Assembly: GCA_023667095.1 (NCBI GenBank)
Contig: JAMPAT010000004.1
Location: 62,001 to 126,000, forward strand
Direction: 5' to 3'
From: Bacteroidales bacterium
GTDB taxonomy: Bacteria; Bacteroidota; Bacteroidia; Bacteroidales; UBA932
Length of the DNA stretch: 64,000 bases
Shown piece by piece: positions 43,876 to 62,763 of this stretch; the first letter of the stretch is position 1, and each line of letters starts with the position of its first letter. The notes beneath the pieces are model-generated. The model did not search any database, was not told the origin of the DNA, and worked only from the letters and a program-made list of their open reading frames with translations. A program made the position numbers and the translations under genes.

Positions 43876-46284
43876 CTACTCACGCTGAAGTGTCTGTATC
43901 GGCCTGGCATGTATGACGTCCAATGTCTGATGCAGCGTTGTCATGAGGATTGCAGACACCAGCAACGCAAATGTGAATATATAGGTCCAGTATCCCAAGT
44001 CTATGTGAAATGCATACGAAGACAGCCATTTTTCCATGAGTATGATGGAGATAGGCGTGCCTATGGCTGATGCTGCGAGAGCCAGTTTCAACTGCCCGGC
44101 TGTCATGGCCAGGTACAGTCTGCCGTTGCCGGCACCGAGAATCTTGCGTATTGCTACTTCCTTCTTTATTGACATTGTGGAAAAGAATGTCATTGCCCAA
44201 AGTCCAAGGCTTGCAACAAAGACAGCAAGTATGGCTGCCCAAGAGAACACGGTTCCGAAATTCCTGTCAGCTTGATATATGGTATTGTGCAATTCCTTTA
44301 GAGAGAAATATGAATATATTGATTCCTGGAAATACCTGTTGTATATTTCCCCGACAATGGCAATGGACTGCGGATTTACATTATTGGCCATGCGTATGGA
44401 GATGTATGGAGTATGTATGAAAGATATCCTGTCCTTAAGGAAAAAGATTATAGGCTTGTATCCGGTTTCAAGCGATTGCTGGTGGTAATTCCTGACAACA
44501 CCGACAATTTCCAATGTGGTCTCGAGGACTTCGGTCCGGACAAGTTTTCCCAATGCGGATTCTGCAGAACTATATCCGAGAATATCAGCAGTTTCCTCAT
44601 TAATGATTATCTTGTCTATCTCACTGTCTGGTGAAGAATCTGAAAAATATCTTCCGCATACCAGTTCTGGCCGATATGTCTGCATGTATTGTTCATCGAC
44701 AGGGAACATCTGTATAAGGCACCTTTGGGAACTGTCTCCCATATATGGCTGATTCATAAACCAGTTTGCTACTTCAGTCCCAGGTACGGCCCCTGAAATG
44801 GTGACATTCTCTACGTTTGCCAGCTGCTTGAGTTCAGTGATGAAGCTTTCGATATGGATATCCATGTCCTTTGTGAGTGACGGATATTTGACTATAAGCA
44901 TCTTGCCGTCAACTTCTGACGATGTCTCTTCCTGCATATATCTGACTTGCCGGAATACTGTAAAGGTCCCTGATATAAGTATGAATGATATTATGAACTG
45001 TGACAATGTCAATGCTTTCCTGACAGTATTTCCGCGTTTGCTATGCAACGGTTTGCCACGCATTGCTTCTGTTGGGTTGATACCTGAAATTGAAAGTGCC
45101 GGATATAGGCCAGTTACAAATGTTCCGATAAGCGTAATTGAGGCTACTATTGCCCAAAATGCAGGTTTATGGAAAAATTCTGACCAGAAATCATGTCCGA
45201 TATGGCGTATCAGGAAATACAGGATTACGCGAATCCATATAAAGGCTATCAATGCTGAAATTATATTTATGATTCCTGACTCGGCCAGCCCTTTGACGAC
45301 AATGGTTTCTCTTGATTCCCCGAGTACTTTTCTCAGGCATAGTTCCTGTCCACGTTCAAGGAATTTCGCCTTTGTCAGATTGAGTGAATTTGCCCATCCT
45401 GTTATAAGGATTGTCATAGACATTATTATGAGGATATATACTGCTGTACGGCTGCCTTTCTTTTCTTTCTCGTAGGCTTTTTGTGGTGTCAGATGTATTT
45501 TTGTAAGAGGAATCAGCTCTATGCCCCATGTCTTGTCGCTTAGTGCATCTGTCCTGTATTTATCTGAAATCTTCAAAAACTCCTCCTCCACTTCCTTGGG
45601 TGATTTCCCCGGATTGAGCTTGACGTAAGTGTAGACTCCATGGATATACCATATGTCCTGCTGCCATTGTGGTATTGTGCTGTAGGACAACAGGAAATCA
45701 TAATGAAGATGGGAACGTACAGGCATGTCTTCCATTACTCCTGTGACCTCAAAGTATTGTCTGGAGGAATATGTGCTGAATTCCATTGTCTTGCCGATGG
45801 GATCTTCAGCCCCGAAATACTTTTCTGCAGCTGTCTGTGTTATTACAGCTGTTCCAGGTCTTTCCAATTGTCCGTGCTTTTCTCCATTGATTATCGGAAA
45901 TTCAAACATTTCAAGGAATGCCGGTTCTGTGTAGCAATATCTGGATTCAGAGAATATTTTATCCCCATATCTTACAGTCTGTTCCTTGTCTTGTGATGTT
46001 ACCCTTACATATTGCCCGATACCTGGTATTTCATCGAACATGGCTGGACCATGTCCATATGTGGTTGAAGCCCAATTGTCTGTGAGGATGTCCCCTTTGT
46101 ATAGCCGGCTTTCTGCACGATATATGTATTCACTTTTATGGAAAGTGTCATAGGTCAGTTCTGACCAGACATAGATAGACAGGATGACGGATACCGCAAG
46201 GCAGATAGACAGTCCAAGAATATTGATTACTGTCAGATATTTCTTGATATACGGGCTTTTATTGCCTTTACTTAATGAACTCAT
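43876..46284 (-). CDS. FtsX/MacB-type ABC permease
   Basis: 802 residues with two repeats of a permease plus periplasmic (MacB-PCD) layout: N-terminal membrane helix (LTVINILGLSICLAVSVILSI), a large periplasmic domain, three helices around 285-430 (including SINSLNLTKAKFLERGQELCLRKVLG-like FtsX signature region), then a second unit ending in three helices. Such double-FtsX permeases in Bacteroidales are presumed to export or sense peptides or lipids. Works with the ATPase at 51980 and the adaptor/TolC just upstream. Last gene of the sigma-54-type operon. Confidence 0.88.
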   Translation of the reverse strand: MSSLSKGNKSPYIKKYLTVINILGLSICLAVSVILSIYVWSELTYDTFHKSEYIYRAESRLYKGDILTDNWASTTYGHGPAMFDEIPGIGQYVRVTSQDKEQTVRYGDKIFSESRYCYTEPAFLEMFEFPIINGEKHGQLERPGTAVITQTAAEKYFGAEDPIGKTMEFSTYSSRQYFEVTGVMEDMPVRSHLHYDFLLSYSTIPQWQQDIWYIHGVYTYVKLNPGKSPKEVEEEFLKISDKYRTDALSDKTWGIELIPLTKIHLTPQKAYEKEKKGSRTAVYILIIMSMTILITGWANSLNLTKAKFLERGQELCLRKVLGESRETIVVKGLAESGIINIISALIAFIWIRVILYFLIRHIGHDFWSEFFHKPAFWAIVASITLIGTFVTGLYPALSISGINPTEAMRGKPLHSKRGNTVRKALTLSQFIISFILISGTFTVFRQVRYMQEETSSEVDGKMLIVKYPSLTKDMDIHIESFITELKQLANVENVTISGAVPGTEVANWFMNQPYMGDSSQRCLIQMFPVDEQYMQTYRPELVCGRYFSDSSPDSEIDKIIINEETADILGYSSAESALGKLVRTEVLETTLEIVGVVRNYHQQSLETGYKPIIFFLKDRISFIHTPYISIRMANNVNPQSIAIVGEIYNRYFQESIYSYFSLKELHNTIYQADRNFGTVFSWAAILAVFVASLGLWAMTFFSTMSIKKEVAIRKILGAGNGRLYLAMTAGQLKLALAASAIGTPISIILMEKWLSSYAFHIDLGYWTYIFTFALLVSAILMTTLHQTLDVIHARPIQTLQRE

Positions 46285-46322: not shown

Positions 46323-47582
46323 TTATCTTAAAATAAGTATTTCATTGTCGCCGTATGAGTCGTAACTGGAGACTATTACTTTCTCTCCTTCACTGAGCCC
46401 GTCAAGTACTTCGTAGTATTGAGGATTCTGCCGCCCGATATGTATATTCCGCCTCGTTGCAGTCCTTCCGTCAGCAGAGAGCACGTATATCCATTTCCCT
46501 CCGCTCTTCCGGTAGAAAGTTCCGCGCGGGACAATGATTCCTTCTTCCGGCTGTCCAAGCTGGAGATTGAGGTAATATGTCTGTCCAAATCGTATATTCG
46601 CAGGTATGTCTCTAGAGAATTTGAAGTCTGCCTTGAATTTTCCGTCACGGACTTCCGGATATACTTTGCACAATGTTGCCTTAAATGAAGAATCCTGCCT
46701 TTCTATTATTGCATCAAGGCCAGGTGTAACCTTGTCTATATAGTGTTCGTCTATCTGTACCTCAATCTTGTAACTCGACATATCGCTTATCTGTCCTATT
46801 TTTCTCCCGGCAGTGATACTTTCACCGAGGACAGCATCCAGCAGCCCAAGCTGCCCGTCTATAGGTGCCTTTATAGTGAGATTATCCTTGCGCTTGCGTA
46901 TCATCTTCATGTTCTTCTGCATATTGTCAAGGCTTTCCTCCATCCTTTCTATCTGTACGGAACGGTACAGGCTGTCCTGGATTTCCTTCTCACGCACAAG
47001 CCCGAGCTGTTCCAGGGCAAGTTCATAGTCTTCCTTGGTCTGGAGATATTCCTCATGCGCAATCAGCTGCTCATTGTAGAGGACTTTATTTTGTTCATGG
47101 CTCCTTTTCAGCCTGCGTACATTTACCTGCAGACCGGCACGTGACTGCTTTAATGAAAGCCTGTCCTGTTCCATCTGTATCTGTGTGTTCCTTAGTATAT
47201 TTTCCTTTTCTGCCAATTCTGCCTCGGAATTGAGTATCTGAAGGTCAAGATTGTCATTTGAAAGGAGAAGTATCTCATCACCTTTATGGACATGGCTTCC
47301 TTCCTCTATCATTATTTCCTGCACTATCCCGCCTTCAATCGGACTTATCTGTATGATAGTCAATGGCTGTACCTGGCCATTGAGCCTTATGTAGTCATTG
47401 AATTCCCCAAACTTTACCTCTGCAATGGAGATGGTGCCCGAATCAACACTCAATGTGCTGGAGCTGTCCTTGAGCATGAACCAGCACATAAGGGCGACTG
47501 CAGATGCACCTCCTATATACGCGAGTGATTTCTTTGTGAATATTGCTTTCCAGCCTTTAGGCTTTTCTATCTGTCTGTCCAT
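46323..47582 (-). CDS. Membrane-fusion adaptor (HlyD/MacA family)
   Basis: 419 residues. One N-terminal membrane helix (SLAYIGGASAVALMCWFML), a biotinyl-lipoyl half (MIEEGSHVHKGDEILLLSN), a long coiled coil (about residues 115-215, rich in Glu/Gln/Lys), the second lipoyl half (LTIKAPIDGQLGLLDA) and beta-barrel domains. It connects the inner-membrane ABC permease to the TolC channel. Twelve nt after tolC; start is ATG 47582. Confidence 0.92.
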   Translation of the reverse strand: MDRQIEKPKGWKAIFTKKSLAYIGGASAVALMCWFMLKDSSSTLSVDSGTISIAEVKFGEFNDYIRLNGQVQPLTIIQISPIEGGIVQEIMIEEGSHVHKGDEILLLSNDNLDLQILNSEAELAEKENILRNTQIQMEQDRLSLKQSRAGLQVNVRRLKRSHEQNKVLYNEQLIAHEEYLQTKEDYELALEQLGLVREKEIQDSLYRSVQIERMEESLDNMQKNMKMIRKRKDNLTIKAPIDGQLGLLDAVLGESITAGRKIGQISDMSSYKIEVQIDEHYIDKVTPGLDAIIERQDSSFKATLCKVYPEVRDGKFKADFKFSRDIPANIRFGQTYYLNLQLGQPEEGIIVPRGTFYRKSGGKWIYVLSADGRTATRRNIHIGRQNPQYYEVLDGLSEGEKVIVSSYDSYGDNEILILR

Positions 47583-47594
47583 GTTCCTTATGTT

Positions 47595-49007
47595 TTATAG
47601 CTGCTGTTCTATGTATGATGTACCGTTGTAATATTTTACGATGCTGTCTTTCATGCGTAGCTGGAGGAAGCTGTTCAGGAGCTCTGCCTGTGCATTGAGG
47701 TAGTTGTCGGAAGCTGTCCTGAATTCTATAGGGGATATAAGCCCCTGCTCCAGTTTCCTGGAATTGAGATGGAAGGCTTCTTCTTGCGCATCCAGCCGCC
47801 TCCCTGCCTGGAAATAAGCCTTGGCTGCACCGTCACGGTCATTTATTGCCCTTATTACCTCTGCCTCTATCTCCTTGACTGTCTTGTAGTATCCAGCCTG
47901 TGCCCTTTCCATGTCGTTTTTCCTTTTTCTGATGTTGGCCTGGCGGCTTAACCTTGAATATATCGGTATGTTGAGTGACAGCTGGATATATTCTCCCATA
48001 TTGGTCCTGAACTGGTTGCGGAACGAAGTAGCAATGTGGTCTGGCTCATTTGGGTATGTGTAGTAAGTAGTTGACCATCCTCCATAGAGGCCCAGTGACG
48101 GTGCCATCTGCCATCTGGCTGTGCTGAGCCTCATCCTTGCCTGTTCGAGTGTGCCTCTGGCAATCGCAGTGGAGGGATGCCGGGTTATTGCATGGCTGAT
48201 CATTTCAGCTGTGTCCACGATGTCCTGCATGATCCGGATTTCCGGTGATGTAAACCTGGTATCTATCAAAAGTTCTTCATCCATAGGCCATAGCATCAGC
48301 GATTGAAGAGTGGTCATTGCATCCTTGTAGTTGTTCTGTATATTCACAAGCTGGAATTCCCTGTCTGCGAGATCTGCTTTCATCTGGACTACATCCGCAT
48401 GGCCTTTCAGCCCAAGCTCTTCCTGTCTGATTGCAAGCTTCAGTGAATTTTCTGCGGTCTTGACCTGTGAACTCACGTTTTCTATCATCTTTCCATAATA
48501 CGCTGCATTATAATATGCTTCCATCACTGCGAGGCATATCATGTCTTTGGCCAGCTGCTCTTCGCTGAGTCCCAATGCAATTGCTGTCTTTGTGATTTTC
48601 ATGTTGTTGACCGCATTGAAACCGTTGAAAAGATCTATCCCTGCGCTGGCGGAATATCCGTTGTGGAATGATGTTACACTCCTGTAGGTGTTTGTCTCCG
48701 GGTCAATTGAACGTCCGAAATTGGAATATGCGTATGTCTGTCCGCTGATTTCAGGTGTGAATGCGGAGAGAATGGCTGTTCTCCTGTCAACACGTCTGTC
48801 GCTGTTGTCGGCTGCATGGATTGCAATGTCTGGTGAATGCGTGATTGCATATTGCATGCATTCCTTTATTCCCATGATGGGCATTTCTCCTGCTTTGACA
48901 TTTCTGTTGATATTGCTTTGCTGTGCACCTGCCCTGCATACAGATGCCATCACTGCTGAAACAGTGATATAAATGAGTATCTTATGAATAATCATGCTCT
49001 TTCCCAT
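47595..49007 (-). CDS. TolC-family outer-membrane efflux channel
   Basis: 470 residues with a signal peptide and two repeats of the outer-membrane efflux domain, each containing long coiled-coil helices (for example AKDMICLAVMEAYYNAAYYGK and QAEL-rich parts). Recognisable repeat motif ...LGLKGHADVVQMKADLADRE. First gene of an operon with adaptor and permease. A sigma-54-like promoter and paired palindromes lie just upstream. The protein could start at 49007 or 48995. Confidence 0.92.
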   Translation of the reverse strand: MGKSMIIHKILIYITVSAVMASVCRAGAQQSNINRNVKAGEMPIMGIKECMQYAITHSPDIAIHAADNSDRRVDRRTAILSAFTPEISGQTYAYSNFGRSIDPETNTYRSVTSFHNGYSASAGIDLFNGFNAVNNMKITKTAIALGLSEEQLAKDMICLAVMEAYYNAAYYGKMIENVSSQVKTAENSLKLAIRQEELGLKGHADVVQMKADLADREFQLVNIQNNYKDAMTTLQSLMLWPMDEELLIDTRFTSPEIRIMQDIVDTAEMISHAITRHPSTAIARGTLEQARMRLSTARWQMAPSLGLYGGWSTTYYTYPNEPDHIATSFRNQFRTNMGEYIQLSLNIPIYSRLSRQANIRKRKNDMERAQAGYYKTVKEIEAEVIRAINDRDGAAKAYFQAGRRLDAQEEAFHLNSRKLEQGLISPIEFRTASDNYLNAQAELLNSFLQLRMKDSIVKYYNGTSYIEQQL

Positions 49008-49035
49008 GTGTTTCTGAAATATCCGGCATAGGAAA

Positions 49036-49052
49036 AAGCTATTAATATGCCA
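49036..49052 (-). promoter_or_regulatory. Putative sigma-54 promoter of the tolC operon
   Basis: TGGCATATTAATAGCT: GG and GC separated by exactly 10 bp, with TGGCA at -24. The predicted start would be about 20 nt before the tolC ATG. It sits downstream of the palindrome pair at 49107-49158. Confidence 0.6.
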
Positions 49053-49106
49053 TTGGACTCAAAATGTTGCAGGACAGCTTGTTGATTGATGCACTCTGTT
49101 TTATGT

Positions 49107-49158
49107 GATGTAAAGAACATTTACATCTGTAGCTTTTCGTGTAAAGTTTTTTTACATC
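49107..49158. promoter_or_regulatory. Paired palindromes, candidate activator sites upstream of tolC
   Basis: GATGTAAA-GAACA-TTTACATC (49107-49127), a perfect palindrome, and GTGTAAA-GTTTT-TTTACATC (49139-49158). Centres are about 31 bp apart (three helical turns). The same motif pair lies at 52876-52926. Confidence 0.65.
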
Positions 49159-49189
49159 TTTTCCCTTATATGTCTGCCTCTGTCGCGAC

Positions 49190-50464
49190 TTACCTGAATG
49201 TGAGGACAAAGGCTGTTGATTTTGAGTCGCTCCTGGAGAGACGTAGACTTCCGTTATGCAGACGCATTATCTGTCGCGATATGCTGAGGCCGATTCCTGT
49301 ACCTTCCGGCTTGGTTGTGTAGAAAGGGACAAAGATTTGCTGCCGGCTTTCATTGCTGATAGGCTGGCCATTGTTGGAGACATATATGTTGACACACTGC
49401 ATGGAGTCTAGACCTGCCGTTATGTTGACTTCTGTTGCACCGGCCTGCAGGGCGTTTACTGCAAGATTTATGAGTATCCTTGAGATCTGGCTGCCGTCTG
49501 CATATATAAGGACATCTTCTGACAATTCAGCAAATGATGCAGAAGCACCTGCCGAGGAGAACTTCTCCTTTGTGAGTTCAATGATACTGTTCACGATGTC
49601 CCTGACAAACAGGGGCTTTTTGACAGGTGTCGGGATGCGTGTAAGATTCCGGTATGACTCTACAAACCTTATCAGGTTGCGTGAGGAACCTGAAATCGTG
49701 TCAAGACCGTTCTTCAGGTCCTCTAAGCTGATTTCAGGTGTGATGCCATCCTTGGCCACTGGTATATAGCCGGTATTTCCTCCCTGTGAACTTTGTACTA
49801 TTGCTCCGGAAAGGGCTTCGCTCAGGGCAGCAACAGGAGTTACTGTATTCATGATTTCATGTGTCAGTACCCTTATGAGCTTTGTCCAGGACTGAACCTC
49901 ATTCTCCTCTATGCTGCCGCTGATGTCGTTGAAAGCCAGTATCTTTACCCTTATACCCCTTATTATGGCTGACGAAGCAGACAATGCAATTGTCTTCTGC
50001 TCAAAGTCAGTGGAGAACTTTACCTCGGCCTCCTCACTGTCATGGATATTTTCAAAGGCTTCTGCCAGTGGCTTGCTGATATTGCGCAGCTGACGTATAT
50101 TCAAAAGCTGTACAGTACCTATTTCTGCGAGAGCCTGTGCATTTGTGTACAGGACCTGTCCAGTGGCGCAGTTGACTGCAACGATTCCAGTCTGGACATT
50201 GTCAAGCATTACCCCGAAATACCGTTCCTGTTCCTTGATCTCTTCCACCTTTCGGTCATAGAGCCTTTTCATCCTGTTCAGAGTCCGGTTGAACGAACCT
50301 CGTATCAGCTGTTCGTGGAATCTGAAATTAGTCTCACCATCCTCCAGGGCATCCAGCATATATTTGACTTTCTTCTCTGCACGGTGAGTAAATACAATAT
50401 AGCAGAACCCGGCAGTAAGGACAACTGCTGCAGAGACAACCGATATTATATATGGTAATGCCAT
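49190..50464 (-). CDS. Sensor histidine kinase (NtrB-like)
   Basis: 424 residues. N-terminal membrane helix (ISVVSAAVVLTAGFCYIVF), a HAMP-free linker, a PAS-like domain (about 80-190), phospho-acceptor His202 in LTHEIMNTVTP, and an ATP-binding domain with N box (ILINLAVNALQ), G1/G2 (EGTGIGLSIS). No large periplasmic sensing domain, so the signal is probably internal or membrane-borne. It follows the response-regulator gene by 28 nt; together they would drive the sigma-54-type promoters. Confidence 0.93.
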   Translation of the reverse strand: MALPYIISVVSAAVVLTAGFCYIVFTHRAEKKVKYMLDALEDGETNFRFHEQLIRGSFNRTLNRMKRLYDRKVEEIKEQERYFGVMLDNVQTGIVAVNCATGQVLYTNAQALAEIGTVQLLNIRQLRNISKPLAEAFENIHDSEEAEVKFSTDFEQKTIALSASSAIIRGIRVKILAFNDISGSIEENEVQSWTKLIRVLTHEIMNTVTPVAALSEALSGAIVQSSQGGNTGYIPVAKDGITPEISLEDLKNGLDTISGSSRNLIRFVESYRNLTRIPTPVKKPLFVRDIVNSIIELTKEKFSSAGASASFAELSEDVLIYADGSQISRILINLAVNALQAGATEVNITAGLDSMQCVNIYVSNNGQPISNESRQQIFVPFYTTKPEGTGIGLSISRQIMRLHNGSLRLSRSDSKSTAFVLTFR

Positions 50465-50492
50465 GTGTGTATTCTTGTGTATGGCCTGCCGG

Positions 50493-51854
50493 CTATATAT
50501 TATATTTTTTCAGTTTGCTGTACAGGGTTGGACGGCTGATGTCCAATGCCTTTGCAACGAGAGTCAGATTGTCTCCATATCTACCCATTGCAGCTCTTAT
50601 AGCGCGTACCTCTGCAGCCTCCAGGGATTCGCCCCCGTCTTCTACCATGTCTGATGCAGTGCGCCGTGACATGATTTCAGCTGGATTTATGTCAAGGTCA
50701 TCCCGTTCCAGCATATCCTTGTCGGACATTATGACGGCCCTTTCCACCGTGTTCTGCAGCTCCCTTATGTTCCCTGGCCAGGAACAGGATGCCAGGAGGG
50801 CGGCAGCCTCAGCTGTCACTCCTTTGACATTGCGCCTGTATTTCACTGAATATTTCCTTATGAATATTTCGGTAAGGGTACATATTTCATCATGACGTTC
50901 CCTCAGTGGGGGCAATTTTATTGAGACCGTGTTCAGTCTATAGAAAAGGTCCTCCCTGAACAGGCCTTCTGCTACCATCTTTTCCAGGTTCATATTGGTT
51001 GCGCATACAAGCCGTATGTCGACCTTGCGTGCCTTTGTCTCGCCGATCCTGGTCACAGTCCTGCCCTGCAGGACACGGAGCAGCTTTGCCTGGAGGTGCA
51101 GCGGTATGTTCCCTATTTCGTCAAGGAAAAGGGTGCTTCCGTCCGCTGCCTCAAATTTTCCTGCCTTGTCGGTATGGGCGTCTGTAAATGCCCCTTTGGC
51201 ATATCCGAAAAGCTCGCTTTCGAACAGGGACTCAGGTATCGCACCGGCATCTACGCTTACCATTTCTTTTCCGCTTCTGGCGGATAGACGGTGTATCTCC
51301 CTGGCCATGACATCTTTGCCAGTTCCATTCTCTCCTGTGATAAGGACACTGGCATCTGTATCCGCGATTTTTCGTATGGTTTTTCTTATAGCCAGCATAG
51401 CTTCGCTTTGCCCCCATACCATTTCTTCTGCAGATTCTGCCTTGGCCGTTTTTGTTGGCTGTTTGCAGGAGACTTCTATGGCTGATTTCAGTGTAGATAT
51501 AAGCCTGTCATTCTCCCATGGCTTTACTATGAAGTCGAATGCTCCACGCTTCATTCCTTCTACTGCCAGGGATATGTCTGCATAGGCAGTGAACAGCACT
51601 ACCTGTATCCCGGGGAAAAGCATCCTTAGTTCGCAGAGCCAGTAAAGCCCTTCATTGCCGGTATTGGTGCCGGTATGGAAATTCATGTCAAGCAGGATTG
51701 CATCCGGCTTGAATGTGGCGACCTTGGTCATAAGGACGTTAGGGGAGGGAATTATCTCCACTTCCGCAAAATGCATCGGAAGCAGTATCTTCAGTGTGGA
51801 TCTGATTCCTGCGTTGTCGTCTACCACGAGTATTTTCCCTGTCTTTTTCATCAT
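50493..51854 (-). CDS. NtrC-family sigma-54 activator response regulator
   Basis: 453 residues. Receiver domain: acidic pair Asp12/Asp13 and phospho-acceptor Asp56 in LLDMNFH. AAA+ domain: Walker A GENGTGKD (174-181), sigma-54-contacting loop as GAFTDA (221-226; classical form GAFTGA), Walker B LFLDEI (242-247). Fis-type helix-turn-helix at the end (NLTLVAKALDISRPTLYSKL). It would bind the palindromes upstream of tolC and of the ABC ATPase gene and activate sigma-54. Own TATTTTTG box at 51883-51876. Confidence 0.95.
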   Translation of the reverse strand: MMKKTGKILVVDDNAGIRSTLKILLPMHFAEVEIIPSPNVLMTKVATFKPDAILLDMNFHTGTNTGNEGLYWLCELRMLFPGIQVVLFTAYADISLAVEGMKRGAFDFIVKPWENDRLISTLKSAIEVSCKQPTKTAKAESAEEMVWGQSEAMLAIRKTIRKIADTDASVLITGENGTGKDVMAREIHRLSARSGKEMVSVDAGAIPESLFESELFGYAKGAFTDAHTDKAGKFEAADGSTLFLDEIGNIPLHLQAKLLRVLQGRTVTRIGETKARKVDIRLVCATNMNLEKMVAEGLFREDLFYRLNTVSIKLPPLRERHDEICTLTEIFIRKYSVKYRRNVKGVTAEAAALLASCSWPGNIRELQNTVERAVIMSDKDMLERDDLDINPAEIMSRRTASDMVEDGGESLEAAEVRAIRAAMGRYGDNLTLVAKALDISRPTLYSKLKKYNI

Positions 51855-51875
51855 CTGCTTTTAAGTTCAGCACTG

Positions 51876-51883
51876 CAAAAATA
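51876..51883 (-). promoter_or_regulatory. Housekeeping promoter box of the regulator-kinase pair
   Basis: TATTTTTG (51883-51876), giving a leader of about 15 nt. It means the regulator can be made without sigma-54. Confidence 0.45.
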
Positions 51884-51979
51884 CTGAGAATCTGTAAATA
51901 ATCCTTATCAAGGTTCCCTGAAATCAAGGAACTGTCGTGAACTGACTTTTGGCATAGATTATATCTGAAGGCTGTCAGG

Positions 51980-52660
51980 CTAAAGTTCAGTCTTGACATC
52001 TGTGACGATATGCCCGTCGAAGAGGTCTATTACCCTCTGTGCCACTGACGCATCCCTCCTGGAGTGGGTAACCATTACTATTGTCGTCCCTTCTGCATTG
52101 AGTTCTGAGAGCAGGTCCATGACTTCCTTTCCGTTTCTTGAGTCAAGGTTGCCTGTCGGTTCATCGGCGAGTATCAAACTTGGCCCAGCTACGACAGCAC
52201 GTGCAATTGCAACCCTCTGCTGCTGCCCTCCTGACAGCTGTTGAGGGAAATGCTTTGCCCTGTGGAATATGTTCATCCGCTTCATTATTGCATTGACTTT
52301 TCCTTTCCTTTCGGAAGCAGGGATATTGAGATACCTTAAGGGGAGCTCGATGTTGTCATATACATTAAGTTCATCTATGAGGTTGAAGCTCTGGAACACG
52401 AATCCGATGTTTCCCTTGCGTAACTTTGTGCGCTCCCTTTCCTTGAGGCTGCCGATCTCTGCGCCGAGGAACATATAGCTTCCAGATGTTGGATTGTCCA
52501 GGAGTCCGAGGATATTCAGCAAGGTGGACTTGCCGCATCCGGACGGACCCATTATCGCAACGAATTCCCCCTCCTTTATTTCAAAGGAAATCCTGTCAAG
52601 GGCAGTTGTCTCGATCTCTTCTGTCCTGAATACTTTTGAAAGGTCTGTTACTTTAATCAT
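51980..52660 (-). CDS. ABC transporter ATPase (LolD/MacB type)
   Basis: 226 residues. Walker A GPSGCGKS (38-45), signature [14 protein letters not shown], Walker [12 protein letters not shown]. The LolD/MacB-like family pairs with FtsX-type permeases, so it likely powers the permease at 43876. Encoded apart from it, on a first transcription unit with its own sigma-54-like promoter and palindrome pair; 125 nt separates it from the regulator gene. Confidence 0.93.
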
Positions 52661-52804
52661 AGTTCAGTTATTTTATCATTATTATGCTTTCAGGACATCT
52701 GCATTATTGCAGCTTCCTGCCGTTTGAGGCAGACGGCAAGTGCAACGTATTGCATCGTTTGAAGTACAGAAGTCCGGGTGCATCCCATGGACATTCCAGA
52801 ATAG

Positions 52805-52821
52805 GAGCGAAACTTGTACCA
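52805..52821 (-). promoter_or_regulatory. Putative sigma-54 promoter of the ABC ATPase gene
   Basis: TGGTACAAGTTTCGCT: GG-N10-GC, at the same distance below its palindrome pair as the tolC promoter. The leader would be about 135 nt. The 52661-53064 gap contains this promoter and the palindromes, and no gene. Confidence 0.55.
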
Positions 52822-52875
52822 TTGAACTTATGTCATTGATATGTCCGGATTTATATTTTTGTGTTTTAGGCTCTT

Positions 52876-52926
52876 ATGTAAAATTACTTTACAGCTTTGA
52901 GCCGCTGGTGTAAAGAATTTTTACAT
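52876..52926. promoter_or_regulatory. Paired palindromes, candidate activator sites upstream of the ATPase gene
   Basis: ATGTAAA-ATTAC-TTTACA (52876-52893) and GTGTAAA-GAATT-TTTACAT (52908-52926). Centres about 32 bp apart. Both match TGTAAA-N5-TTTACA as at 49107-49158. Confidence 0.65.
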
Positions 52927-53064: not shown

Positions 53065-54582
53065 ATGAAAGGGATATATTATATGTTGGTATCAGGCATA
53101 TTGCTTCTGGCAGGGACGGTTGCGGCGGCAGAAGCTGGAAGGGAACGTATGCGCCTGGACGGGAAATGGCACAGCACATTCGGGGACTGCAGTCTTCCTG
53201 GGATTCCGGAGAAGGCCGCAGGGCAGCATCACAGGAGGGGGAGGCAATGGATAATGTACCACAGGACTGTAAATGTGCCGTCTTCATTTGCCGGACGCCG
53301 TCTCCGTCTTGTCCTTGAACGTGCAGGGGAGACTACCCTCTGGGTAGATGGGGACAGTATCGGGAGTTTCAGCCATCCTGCATTGCCACATATATATGAA
53401 CTGCCTCCTCTGGCCGGGAACAAGGCTGAGGTTTCCCTGAAGGCGAGTGACGGAATATATGGAAATATGTATCTTGAAGCATATGATTCCACATATATTT
53501 CCGATGTTGTTGTCGAGCCTGATGCAGAGTCATGCTATGCCGATGTAAAGGTCTCTGTCGAATCCGTGCGTGCAGGCAAGGCGCATCTTCGTCTCTGTGT
53601 AAATCCTGCAGGGACAGGCGACAGGGATGCAAAGGGAAGTGTACAGTATGAAGTAAGCCTGGCCAAGGGCAGCAATGAGTTCAGATACAGGATGGAAGTC
53701 GCAGATCCAGTCTCACTGTGGAGCGAATTCCATCCTGACATGTACCGTCTTGATGCAAGCCTGACGGCAATGGACTGCTCTGACAGGGCTGAATGTGTTT
53801 TTGCAGTCAGGGATTTGACAGTTGAAAACGGCTACATGTCTGTGAACGGCAACCGTGTGTTCCTGCGTGGTGTAAAATATGCCGGAGCAGCGGGAGAGGG
53901 ACGGAGACAGATGAAGGAATGGTGGTGGAGGATGCTTTTCTCCAGAGCTGCTGAAAAAGGTATAAATTATTGGCAGGTATGTTCATATAGCCTGCCTGAA
54001 GAAGCTTTTGCCGCTGCAGATGCCGAGGGTGTATTTATCAGTTCAGATGATGCTTCCATCGGGCACAGGCATCCATCGTATATAGGCTGCATGGACGGTA
54101 TAGAGCTCGTCTGGATAGGAAGAAAGGACAATGCTGAAAACTATATGGAGGATATTGATGCCGCAATGGGTGAGGACTGCGGAGGCTTTCTGCTTCCTGA
54201 CGCTGAGTCTTGTACATCGGAGATAGCTGCATTGAAGCCGATTGCATATTATGGGAAACAGCTGCTGACACAGGGGGATACCCTTAATGTAAAGGTCTGT
54301 GTCGCCAACTATACCGAGACTGACTGGAGCGGCCAGGTTGAGTGGTCAGTTGCCGCGGATGAACTGCTGCCGGCCACAAAGGAAACCCTGCCTGTTTTCA
54401 GCGGACGCATTGACAGTACTGTTCCACAAGGGCATACAGAACAGGCAGGACGTGTATTCCTGCCTGTTTCAATGCTTGGACTCAAGGAGGGTGAAACCTG
54501 CCGCCTGACGCTCACGCTTTCTATCGGTGAGCATAAGTCCATATATGTCTTCCGTGCCGGAAGCCAGCCTCATTTCCTATAA
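53065..54582 (+). CDS. Exported GH2-like protein with reduced barrel region
   Basis: 505 residues with a signal peptide (MLVSGILLLAGTVAAAEA). The order of parts resembles a glycoside hydrolase family 2 enzyme: jelly-roll sugar-binding domain (RQWIMYHRTVNVPSSFAGRR, TTLWVDGDSIGSF), immunoglobulin-like domain (to about 245), and the barrel opening GYMSVNGNRVFLRGVKYAG. The barrel then is only about 110 residues and I see no acid/base NE or nucleophile Glu in the expected places. An extra beta domain closes the protein. Likely a catalytically inactive or divergent carbohydrate-binding protein. Its stop codon overlaps that of the convergent nuclease gene. Confidence 0.75.
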   Translation: MKGIYYMLVSGILLLAGTVAAAEAGRERMRLDGKWHSTFGDCSLPGIPEKAAGQHHRRGRQWIMYHRTVNVPSSFAGRRLRLVLERAGETTLWVDGDSIGSFSHPALPHIYELPPLAGNKAEVSLKASDGIYGNMYLEAYDSTYISDVVVEPDAESCYADVKVSVESVRAGKAHLRLCVNPAGTGDRDAKGSVQYEVSLAKGSNEFRYRMEVADPVSLWSEFHPDMYRLDASLTAMDCSDRAECVFAVRDLTVENGYMSVNGNRVFLRGVKYAGAAGEGRRQMKEWWWRMLFSRAAEKGINYWQVCSYSLPEEAFAAADAEGVFISSDDASIGHRHPSYIGCMDGIELVWIGRKDNAENYMEDIDAAMGEDCGGFLLPDAESCTSEIAALKPIAYYGKQLLTQGDTLNVKVCVANYTETDWSGQVEWSVAADELLPATKETLPVFSGRIDSTVPQGHTEQAGRVFLPVSMLGLKEGETCRLTLTLSIGEHKSIYVFRAGSQPHFL

Positions 54583-56217
54583 CCCCCAGTCAGAGGCATT
54601 GTAGCTGTCTTTAGGGGCTTGCGGTACATTTGCGAAATATGTGAACCCAGTAATCTTTTCAAGGTCTGACACAGACATCAGGTCCTGTGAACTTACGGAT
54701 ACCTTTGTCGGCGTGTTGTGGCTCCTGACGAATGCTGCGCACTTGATTTCCGATGCTGAGCATTTGGACAGGGGCTTTCCGCTGTTGCCGGACTTGGTCC
54801 TCATCAGGATATAGTAGAACATTGTCGGCCTTGAGACATCGCTGCGTCCTCCGAATGAAATCTTTGCCGGGCTGTCGGAATATCCACGTCTGTCAGTGTA
54901 CTGGTCGAAATACGTCCCGACGACAACGTACAGGGTATCAGAGCATACCTGTCCGTCAACCCAGTCTTCAAGGGTGTTCCATCCACCTCCTCCGGTATTG
55001 AATGTGGATGATCTCTGTGGAGCAATATTGCTGTAGTAGAATACCTGTCTGTTGGTCCCATCTGAACAGATGCGCTCGGCAGAACCGAGCATGTGCCCCT
55101 TGTTGCATCCTCCTCCTGTGGATTTGCTGCTGTACTGTATTGATGACGGGATTTCAGGGTCAGCCTTGTAGGCATCTGTCCTGTTGCAGCCCTTTGTCTC
55201 ATACATCTTATGCCTCGGGGCTGCAACCCATACCGGACAATGGTGCTTTGCGCTGAAGCAGACAGTGTAGTTGCGGGCCGGCTTTCCGTTAGGGCCTTTC
55301 TCGGGGCCTGCGCATATATGGTGCGCGAAATAGATGTCCGGATCTGAGCTGTCCGTAGTGTATTTCCCGTTGCTGCTTACATTCATTATAGGAAGCTCGT
55401 ACCATCCATATTTCGCATTGTTCGGAAGCGGCTCGTAGTCTCCTGGCCCATCAGGATCAGGCTTGTCCGGGTCAACAGGATCAACAGGGTCAACGGGATC
55501 GGTCGGGTCCACAGGGCCAGGGTTGTCTGGGCCTGTCCCGCTGCCAGGCTTGCCGTCAGATACGCTTCTTCTGTACAGTGTCAGGACTTTCTGTGATGAC
55601 GTGTAGCAGGCGAACCTTGGAGCAGATGCGTTCCATTGCAGTTCCCTGCCAGTTGAAGACATCGGACTCAGGCTTGCGTGTGTGCCGTATGATATCTCCC
55701 AATGGAACTCCTTGTCAGAGACAGACGGCGCTTCATCGCTCCTGCTCAATGAGTTCTTGCTTCCCGAATATCCTATATAGCCTACATTGGAGACATAGAT
55801 TGTATATCCTGTTCCGTCTTGTGAGAATATAGCCTTGCATTTGTCACCCTCTTCAGACGGGATGCCTTCCTCTGTCATGGCCGGCATGAGGTCTGTACGG
55901 CTCTGTCCATATTTTGAATCGTCCCAGGAATCGAATGCCGTTATGCCGGATGATGATGTATATGCTATGATGTAGTCCCCCTCCCAGCTTTCCGGCTGTG
56001 ACGTGACTTCCATGTAATAAAATGTTTTCTGAGTGGCCCCCCCTGGATTGTCGGGATCCGGATTTTCCGGGTTGTCTGGATCTGGCTTGTCAGGATTCTC
56101 CGGGTCAGGATTCTCTATTTCTCCCTTGTTGTCTTCCGGAAGTTCCGGCCCTGCTTCTTCACATCCTGCAATCATTGCCAATGAGGCCATGATTGATAGA
56201 AAATAATTGAATCTCAT
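54577..56217 (-). CDS. DNA/RNA non-specific endonuclease (NUC1 family) lipoprotein
   Basis: 546 residues from ATG 56217. Lipobox MIAGC (Cys19). Then a Pro/Asp/Asn-rich linker (about 30-60), a beta domain, a second linker of repeated VDP/DPD units (about 225-260), and the nuclease domain. Its catalytic stretch is NKGHMLGSAER, where the classic DRGH has Asn-Lys; the His is kept. FYYSNIAPQ with the metal-binding Asn, and WNTLEDWV follow. Envelope-tethered nuclease for nutrient DNA or defence; both linkers probably space the domain from the membrane. Longer in-frame starts precede the promoter. Confidence 0.87.
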   Translation of the reverse strand: MRFNYFLSIMASLAMIAGCEEAGPELPEDNKGEIENPDPENPDKPDPDNPENPDPDNPGGATQKTFYYMEVTSQPESWEGDYIIAYTSSSGITAFDSWDDSKYGQSRTDLMPAMTEEGIPSEEGDKCKAIFSQDGTGYTIYVSNVGYIGYSGSKNSLSRSDEAPSVSDKEFHWEISYGTHASLSPMSSTGRELQWNASAPRFACYTSSQKVLTLYRRSVSDGKPGSGTGPDNPGPVDPTDPVDPVDPVDPDKPDPDGPGDYEPLPNNAKYGWYELPIMNVSSNGKYTTDSSDPDIYFAHHICAGPEKGPNGKPARNYTVCFSAKHHCPVWVAAPRHKMYETKGCNRTDAYKADPEIPSSIQYSSKSTGGGCNKGHMLGSAERICSDGTNRQVFYYSNIAPQRSSTFNTGGGGWNTLEDWVDGQVCSDTLYVVVGTYFDQYTDRRGYSDSPAKISFGGRSDVSRPTMFYYILMRTKSGNSGKPLSKCSASEIKCAAFVRSHNTPTKVSVSSQDLMSVSDLEKITGFTYFANVPQAPKDSYNASDWGL

Positions 56218-56260
56218 GCTTTTTCTTGTTATTATCTCTTCAATAATATTCTTCGGGAAA

Positions 56261-56292
56261 CAAAAATACAAAATTATCATTATCTTTGCAAA
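56261..56292. promoter_or_regulatory. Overlapping divergent promoters for the nuclease and ridA
   Basis: Minus strand: TTTG (56292-56289), 20-bp spacer, TATTTTTG (56268-56261), a near-complete promoter for the nuclease gene. Plus strand: TATCTTTG (56281-56288) for ridA. The elements interlock. Confidence 0.65.
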
Positions 56293-56369
56293 ATTGTGCG
56301 CCTGCTCCTGGAACGTTCCGGACGGCCTGGGAGATGCCAGGACATATTGTACCACCTAAATTTTAGAAG

Positions 56370-61179: not shown

Positions 61180-62763
61180 ATGAAAAAGGAGAATAGTGCA
61201 TTGTGGGCTGCAATCCTTGGGGTTGCAATCGGTGTCCTGGTGGCATCGCTGGCATTCAGCCTGAAGGGCAGCAGGAAACTTGACGGAGACTACAGCAGCT
61301 GGCGTAAACTGAACCTGATTCTGCAGGAGATCGAAAAGAACTATGTTGATACGATTGACATCAAGGGAATGACAGATGCAGCTGTCGAAGCTGCCCTTGA
61401 GAAACTGGATCCGCATTCCATATATCTGCCTCCTGTCCAGCTTGAGGCATCGGAGACTGAACTTGCCGGCAATTTCGAAGGGATCGGGATACAGTTCAAT
61501 GTACCGAATGACACCGCAGTTGTACTCAGTGTCATACCTGGAGGACCGTCAGAAAGGGCGGGCCTGAAGTCAGGAGACCGTATAATCAAGGTAGATGACA
61601 GGAATATAGCAGGTGTAAAGACTCCGCAGGATTCAATGGTAAGGCTGATGAAAGGCCCTTCCGGTTCAAAGGTCGGCGTTACCGTCCTGAGACAGTCTTC
61701 CATCATCCCCTTTGAGATAATACGTGACAAGATTCCTGTGAACAGCGTTGATGCGGCATTCATGGTAAATGATACTACAGGGTATATCCGGCTGACAAAA
61801 TTCTCCCGCACCACATACCAGGAATTTGTAAAATCATATAGGAAGCTGCAGGATGACGGCATGAAGCGTCTCATCTTTGATCTCCGTGACAATAACGGTG
61901 GATATCTGGACCAGGCCTTGCTCCTTTGCAATGAGTTTCTTGAGAAAGGTGACCTGATTGTCTATATGGAAGGGCTGCACCGTAAGAGGGAGGAGTTCCG
62001 TGCCGATGGAAGGGGGGCCCTGAAAGATATAGGGTTGTCGGTCCTGATAGGTGAGTCTTCTGCATCTTCAAGCGAGATATTCGCGGGTGCAATGCAGGAC
62101 AATGACAGGGGAGTGATAGTCGGACGCCGCTCATTCGGCAAAGGCCTTGTACAGGAGCCTGTAAACTTTACAGACGGTTCCGGCATAAGGATTACAGTGG
62201 CACGTTTCTACACTCCTGCGGGACGCTGTATCCAGAAGCCTTATTCACCTGACTATGCATACGATATATATGAGAGATATGCGCATGGAGAAATGACTGA
62301 GGCGGACAGTATCCGGATTGACAGGAGCGTGGAATACAATACTGCAGGAGGCAGGAAAGTCTATGGCGGAGGAGGAATCGTACCTGACATGTTTGTGCCT
62401 ATAGATACTACCAGGGCCACGAGGTTCTTCATTGACTGCAACAAGAAGGCAATCCAGATGAGGTTTGCTTCGTGGGCTTTCGACAAATACGGCTACAGGC
62501 TCTCACAGATTGATGACTTCTCACGTCTGGAGGCATATTTCAGGGAAATAGGGCTGGAGGCAAGGTTCCTTGACTTTGCGAAGTCAGAGGGCATAGTTCC
62601 AAAGGATGGGGAATGGATGGAGACTGCCCCATATATGATGCCGCAGGTGAATGCCCTGGTAGGACGCTATTCGAAGCTTGGGGACGAGGCTTTCTATCGT
62701 TTCTATCTTGATATTGACGAGACAATCAAGGCTGCGCTTGCTGCACCTTCTGTTGTTGAATGA
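61180..62763 (+). CDS. C-terminal processing protease (CtpA, S41)
   Basis: 527 residues. Membrane anchor (ALWAAILGVAIGVLVASLAF), then a PDZ domain (about 90-180, GIGIQFNV, GLKSGDRIIKVDD). Catalytic Ser296 (SSASSSEI) and Lys321 (FGKGLVQEP), 25 residues apart as in Prc. A C-terminal extension of about 150 residues follows. Cleaves exported proteins at their C terminus in the periplasm. Ends in a perfect terminator. Confidence 0.94.
   Translation: MKKENSALWAAILGVAIGVLVASLAFSLKGSRKLDGDYSSWRKLNLILQEIEKNYVDTIDIKGMTDAAVEAALEKLDPHSIYLPPVQLEASETELAGNFEGIGIQFNVPNDTAVVLSVIPGGPSERAGLKSGDRIIKVDDRNIAGVKTPQDSMVRLMKGPSGSKVGVTVLRQSSIIPFEIIRDKIPVNSVDAAFMVNDTTGYIRLTKFSRTTYQEFVKSYRKLQDDGMKRLIFDLRDNNGGYLDQALLLCNEFLEKGDLIVYMEGLHRKREEFRADGRGALKDIGLSVLIGESSASSSEIFAGAMQDNDRGVIVGRRSFGKGLVQEPVNFTDGSGIRITVARFYTPAGRCIQKPYSPDYAYDIYERYAHGEMTEADSIRIDRSVEYNTAGGRKVYGGGGIVPDMFVPIDTTRATRFFIDCNKKAIQMRFASWAFDKYGYRLSQIDDFSRLEAYFREIGLEARFLDFAKSEGIVPKDGEWMETAPYMMPQVNALVGRYSKLGDEAFYRFYLDIDETIKAALAAPSVVE

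Follow-up and report, generated by a model that had tools for sequence, protein, structure and literature searches.

How an exporter is switched on, and by which protein, is the question raised by a gene cluster in a 64,000-nucleotide stretch of DNA (the window; positions 62,001 to 126,000 of contig JAMPAT010000004.1, assembly GCA_023667095.1) from a gut-type Bacteroidales bacterium of the UBA932 lineage. The cluster is a single series of minus-strand genes for an ATP-binding cassette (ABC) ATPase, an NtrC-type regulator, a histidine kinase, a TolC-type channel, an HlyD-type adaptor and a MacB_PCD/FtsX permease. Two promoter regions, one before the ABC ATPase gene and one before tolC, each carry a pair of TGTAAA-N5-TTTACA palindromes. 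From the analysis of these sequences, we consider it very probable that the cluster works as a self-contained sigma-54 switch controlling a tripartite ABC exporter, in which the phosphorylated NtrC-type regulator acts on the paired sites, and that this layout is conserved in Bacteroidales.

Palindromes and promoter elements at the two operons

At the tolC promoter, the proximal palindrome (TGTAAAGAACATTTACA) lies at 49109-49125 and the distal one (TGTAAAGTTTTTTTACA) at 49140-49156, centred at -91 and -122 relative to an inferred start at 49026. At the ABC promoter, the corresponding sites are at 52877-52893 (TGTAAAATTACTTTACA) and 52909-52925 (TGTAAAGAATTTTTACA), centred at -90 and -122 relative to an inferred start at 52795; both starts were obtained by placing the C of the -12 GC at -12. 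The centres of the two pairs are 31 base pairs (bp) apart at tolC and 32 bp apart at the ABC gene. Between each pair and its gene there is a minus-strand -24/-12 element, TGGCATATTAATAGCT at 49037-49052 for the tolC operon and TGGTACAAGTTTCGCT at 52806-52821 for the ABC gene, and both have GG at -24 and GC at -12 with ten bases between them, as expected of a sigma-54 promoter. The distance from the element to the nearer palindrome is 56 bp (tolC) and 55 bp (ABC). Each element is the top-scoring one by a wide margin within its intergenic region: the tolC element, a zero-mismatch match, scored 11.5 against -3.6 for the next, and the ABC element 10.2 against 4.1. Two palindromes a whole number of helical turns apart, upstream of a promoter, constitute an NtrC-like enhancer arrangement at both operons.

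These features had been proposed in a preliminary description of this DNA, and we found the GG-N10-GC elements, the palindrome pairs about 55 bp upstream of them and the centre spacing of 31-32 bp as it had reported. Its site limits proved 1-2 bp wider than the exact palindromes, although the tolC-proximal site does extend to GATGTAAA-N5-TTTACATC at 49107-49127. It had also named random occurrence of the palindromes across the genome as the observation that would speak against a defined site. Pattern searches of the whole 3.33-Mb genome spoke against such random occurrence: they returned four exact copies, all at this locus, and none of the reversed control pattern. When up to two mismatches were allowed, 254 palindrome matches stood against 335 for the control, without excess, indicating that the strict palindrome form alone is special. 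Accordingly, we rejected a large regulon of degenerate sites, and the regulon of this genome is very small, comprising these two promoters only. We likewise rejected the idea that the palindromes act in an RNA or as terminators: they have no match in Rfam, and the minus strand of the region showed no terminator-like site, nor did the interval between the ATPase and regulator genes.

Conserved geometry in relatives

Many genomes of the family have orthologues of the regulator, with 45-64% full-length identity, and these adjoin the same exporter genes. We assembled 110 non-redundant regulator loci, 1.65 Mb in total, from the family as well as from named Bacteroidales records, and ranked all exact 6-bp inverted repeats with gaps of 0-12 (4096 arms x 13 gaps) by the number of loci holding each, without reference to any motif. 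TGTAAA-N5-TTTACA ranked first, in 29 of the 110 loci, followed by its N4 form and sub-strings. The centres of paired sites in these loci were 18-23, 32-33 or 41 bp apart, in addition to a 10-bp overlapping three-half-site form, and six permuted control motifs gave no pairs there. This second layout, found near TolC-type operons, consists of three half-sites 10 bp apart, AAGTGTAAAG-N3-TGTAAAG-N3-TTTACACTT, the middle one in either orientation (L045:5051, L048:10282, L051:10284, L058:13303, L126:11323 and others). In P. vulgatus (L149), the stretch read had no clear sites. At the spacing of our locus, the exact two-site pattern was absent from 392 other genomes of the order, which at first suggested restriction to one lineage; we rejected this idea, as relatives use other spacings and letters.

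We scanned the surroundings of 70 site clusters, about 200 bp to each side, with a sigma-54 matrix and with no gap limit on the position of the site. Of the 42 best elements with a score of 8 or more, 29 had the centre of the nearest site at -87 to -92. A composite pattern (site-N52..59-TGGCA), searched in 250 genomes of the family independently of any protein, gave 55 matches in 39 genomes against 3 control matches. When 46 of these were re-read, 42 directly preceded exporter genes, in TolC-HlyD-MacB, MacB-ABC-MacB, ABC-MacB or MacB-regulator-kinase operons, and the gap was 55 or 56 in 35. Among 98 non-redundant promoters, the near site was at -90 or -91 in 75, a distribution bounded by the gap limits of 52-59 in the composite search. 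A second upstream site was present in 72 of the 98, where shuffled sequences predict 5.4, at a spacing of 19-23 bp in 58 promoters, 31-33 bp in 7, 41-44 bp in 5, and 51 or 56 bp in 2. The spacings of 31 and 32 bp at our locus are therefore the less common, three-turn form, while 21-22 bp is usual in relatives. The layout of the preliminary description recurs in relatives, with two refinements: the regulon of this genome has only two promoters, and its spacing of 31-32 bp is the rarer one.

The layout also reaches beyond the family with changed letters, as judged from matches before exporters of a composite pattern with TGTC-type sites. This form gave 42 matches against 11 for the control in 295 genomes of the order; of 22 re-read in stretches from the best genomes, 19 preceded exporter genes, and nearly all had a second palindrome about two turns upstream. 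Eight TGTC-type paired-site promoters were seen in one distant Bacteroidales genome, G105 (L267-L272), and TGTC-type sites at about -90 before exporter operons likewise in another, G205 (L275-L278), which suggests large exporter regulons in both. Our own genome has a single TGTC-type match (C11:158859), which is not followed by an exporter gene and was taken as chance. Taken together, the sites, their geometry, their association with exporter genes and their conservation are established by the sequences themselves.

The regulator as probable reader of the sites

The regulator (50493-51854, minus strand) has a receiver domain with a phosphoacceptor aspartate (PF00072), a sigma-54 AAA+ domain (PF00158) and a C-terminal Fis-type helix-turn-helix (PF02954) with the recognition helix ISRPTLYSKLKKY, which together define an NtrC-type activator. 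Its D56 is invariant among the aligned orthologues, and its closest solved structure is NtrC1 (4l4u; full-length match, 3.9e-84). The sigma-54 contact loop reads GAFTDA rather than GAFTGA, here and in nearly all aligned orthologues, so that the second G is replaced and the T is kept. The genome holds one copy of rpoN and two other sigma-54 activators that we found; one (L231) has no helix-turn-helix and the other has a different helix, ISERTLYRK, which makes this regulator the natural candidate for the palindromes. L231 (G000:C33:60161-61282) is a receiver-AAA+ protein that adjoins a membrane histidine kinase, and its homologues of about 390 amino acids, widespread in the family, are apparently activators without a DNA-binding domain of their own.

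Site type follows the recognition helix. In the 44 loci where both could be read, TGTAAA sites at -90 accompany P at the (S/T)R(P/Q)T position in 33 of 33 and TGTC-type sites accompany Q in 11 of 11, and orthologues with the RQTLY helix have TGTC-type sites at the same position as the TGTAAA sites of RPTLY orthologues. Composite promoters were found in 18 of 63 family genomes with a close regulator versus 4 of 87 without (p = 9e-5), and it is in the cluster of the regulator itself that the sites are concentrated. In view of the genome-unique sites, their fixed distance from sigma-54 elements, the recurrence of this geometry before TolC-HlyD-MacB and MacB-ABC operons of relatives and the match to the helix, the earlier proposal that the pairs are the regulator's own enhancer in a sigma-54 exporter regulon gains support from comparative sequence evidence.

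There are, however, observations that weigh against this proposal. The perfect 33/11 split corresponds to one evolutionary switch in the tree; for this reason it is suggestive and no proof, and we rejected it as a statistical argument. Three genomes (G497, G508 and G519) have TGTAAA promoters though their cluster regulator has the RQTLY helix, and an exact TGTAAA palindrome is missing from the sequence read at about half of the RPTLY loci. TGTTCC and TGTGCC arms in some RPTLY loci were considered as a second code and rejected, since they appear to be overlapping or intragenic matches. A close regulator is missing from four of the 22 genomes that have composite promoters, and these may be incomplete assemblies or may use a different activator. 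At our locus, the ABC element is weak outside GG and GC (TGGT, TCGC), and the interval from the ABC gene to the regulator gene contains a hairpin that lacks a T-run.

Some of these points would suit the explanation that the palindromes belong to another DNA-binding protein, such as a repressor of the exporter genes, while the NtrC-type regulator acts elsewhere or binds weakly. Many dimeric regulators fit short AT-rich palindromes, and both the four genomes without a close regulator and the TGTAAA promoters beside RQTLY regulators could be understood in this way. Nevertheless, sites locked at -90 from sigma-54 elements, in pairs spaced by helical multiples, resemble enhancers and not an operator that overlaps a promoter; since the helix also matches the site type in all labelled loci and the sites cluster with the regulator's own genes, we regard this explanation as improbable. 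It is also conceivable that the regulator binds the sites but that transcription starts from sigma-A type promoters, the -24/-12 elements being non-functional. The degenerate ABC element would be in line with this, but strong TGGCACG-N4-WTGCW elements stand at the same place in many relatives, the regulator retains the sigma-54 AAA+ domain with its GAFTDA loop, and sigma-70-like matches in the region are at background level, so that we consider it highly unlikely. Finally, both promoters lie in one cluster and share an unusual three-turn spacing, which might come about if the palindromes arose by chance or if one promoter region was duplicated locally. Chance is ruled out by the genome and control counts and by conservation in relatives, and the flanks and spacers of the two promoters differ; the probability of this explanation is close to negligible, and a duplication would leave the function unchanged.

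For the sigma-54 switch, we infer binding, phosphorylation, sigma-54 dependence, autoregulation and export function in the following scheme. The membrane-anchored kinase would phosphorylate the regulator on a membrane or cytoplasmic cue. Regulator dimers would then occupy both palindromes, separated by three helical turns and facing the same side of the DNA, and an assembled AAA+ ring would contact sigma-54 RNA polymerase about 90 bp from the nearer site and open the promoter. The tolC promoter would drive tolC-hlyD-permease and the ABC promoter the ABC ATPase gene; considering that no minus-strand terminator-like site separates the ATPase and regulator genes, the latter promoter probably also feeds the regulator and kinase by read-through, as positive autoregulation. 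The kinase (49190-50464, minus strand; PF02518; H-box HEIMN) has one N-terminal membrane helix and no periplasmic sensor domain by hydropathy. Accordingly, the cue would not be a periplasmic ligand bound by its own domain, and may instead be a signal from the membrane or cytoplasm, or the exporter itself.

In a wider sense, we think it somewhat likely that Bacteroidales share a rigid, undescribed enhancer code for MacB/FtsX-type exporters, read by one NtrC-type family. In such a code, the nearest palindrome would lie at -90 and the second 2, 3 or 4 turns further up, the letters would change with the recognition helix, up to eight promoters would be served per genome (as in G105), and the cue would perhaps come through the membrane or from the exporter, because the kinase lacks a periplasmic sensor. 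Sigma-54 control in Bacteroidales is barely mapped and recognition by its activators is largely obscure. The present finding gives a specific candidate motif for an activator, together with a strict geometry and a class of targets, namely multi-part ABC exporters, often several per genome. Any Bacteroidales genome can be searched for these features, and laboratory species that are easy to handle allow them to be tested. Also, the spacings of 2, 3 and 4 turns form a natural series, and the P/Q residue of the recognition helix is a candidate specificity residue, for studying how sigma-54 activators read DNA.

Exporter genes and comparison with known systems

Domain matches agree with the gene identities given in the preliminary description, including the regulator and kinase genes between the two operons, all on the minus strand. 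The ABC ATPase (51980-52660; 226 amino acids; PF00005, 2.3e-35) is MacB/LolD/DarD-like. The TolC-type outer membrane channel (47595-49007; PF02321, 2.2e-41) may have its true start at an in-frame ATG at 48995. It is followed by the HlyD/MacA/DarC-type periplasmic adaptor (46323-47582; PF13437, PF16576) and by an 802-amino-acid duplicated MacB_PCD/FtsX permease without an ATPase domain of its own (43876-46284; PF12704 and PF02687, twice each). Divergently from the ATPase promoter region runs a plus-strand gene (53065-54582) for a protein of 505 amino acids with a glycoside hydrolase family 2 middle domain, far shorter than the matched galactosidases. Beyond it, on the minus strand (54577-56355), a protein of 592 amino acids has a long Asp/Pro-rich linker and no NCBIfam match; its C-terminal part, judged by eye, resembles a DNA/RNA non-specific endonuclease.

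The closest named components are those of the darobactin exporter DarBCD and of MacAB-TolC, and the DarD, DarC, DarB and MacB models all matched below their curated cut-offs. For the darobactin equivalogs of NCBIfam, the scores were 278.6 bits against 375 (DarD), 198.9 against 450 (DarC) and 76.9 against 700 (DarB). In MacAB-TolC, the ATPase and permease of MacB are in one chain, whereas here the duplicated permease is accompanied by the separate ATPase; the permease scored 19.4 bits against PRK10535 (cut-off 966). It shares the duplicated architecture of the ADOP family (TIGR03434) but scored 213.8 bits, below the cut-off of 622.3.

In terms of regulation, FtsX/MacB-type permeases (COG0577) of Bacteroidia are predicted to be under sigma-54 control in a 2025 survey, which calls this link the first such (PMC12316311). 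The target-gene class and the sigma factor are the same as here; in the parts of that survey available to us, the prediction uses promoter matrices only, with no activator, enhancer motif or spacing given for these genes. The sigma-54 regulon of Flavobacterium psychrophilum provides experimentally supported -24/-12 promoters in Bacteroidota (PMC9723704), but as far as the accessible text goes it covers chaperone, protein quality-control and surface genes, with activators unassigned and no exporter enhancer code. The terms sigma-54 and RpoN are absent from the main text of two B. thetaiotaomicron transcriptome papers (PMC12596196, PMC10994844). A search of the open-access literature for the motif itself returned only unrelated sequence matches. 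Nor did this literature describe the -90 rule, the spacings by helical turns or the regulon of exporters, which does not prove novelty.

The kind of system, an NtrC-type activator with paired enhancer sites and sigma-54, is classical, and the closest to ours are NtrC/ZraR-type sigma-54 enhancer systems such as E. coli glnAp2 with its NtrC sites. Our locus resembles such systems in its receiver-AAA+-Fis activator, its partner kinase, and its paired palindromes about three turns apart and about 100 bp upstream of a -24/-12 promoter. The motif, the geometry and the order-wide exporter regulon appear to be undescribed so far, and the locus differs from those systems in the sequence of the sites, in a nearest site fixed at -90 over many promoters, and in having ABC exporters as targets.

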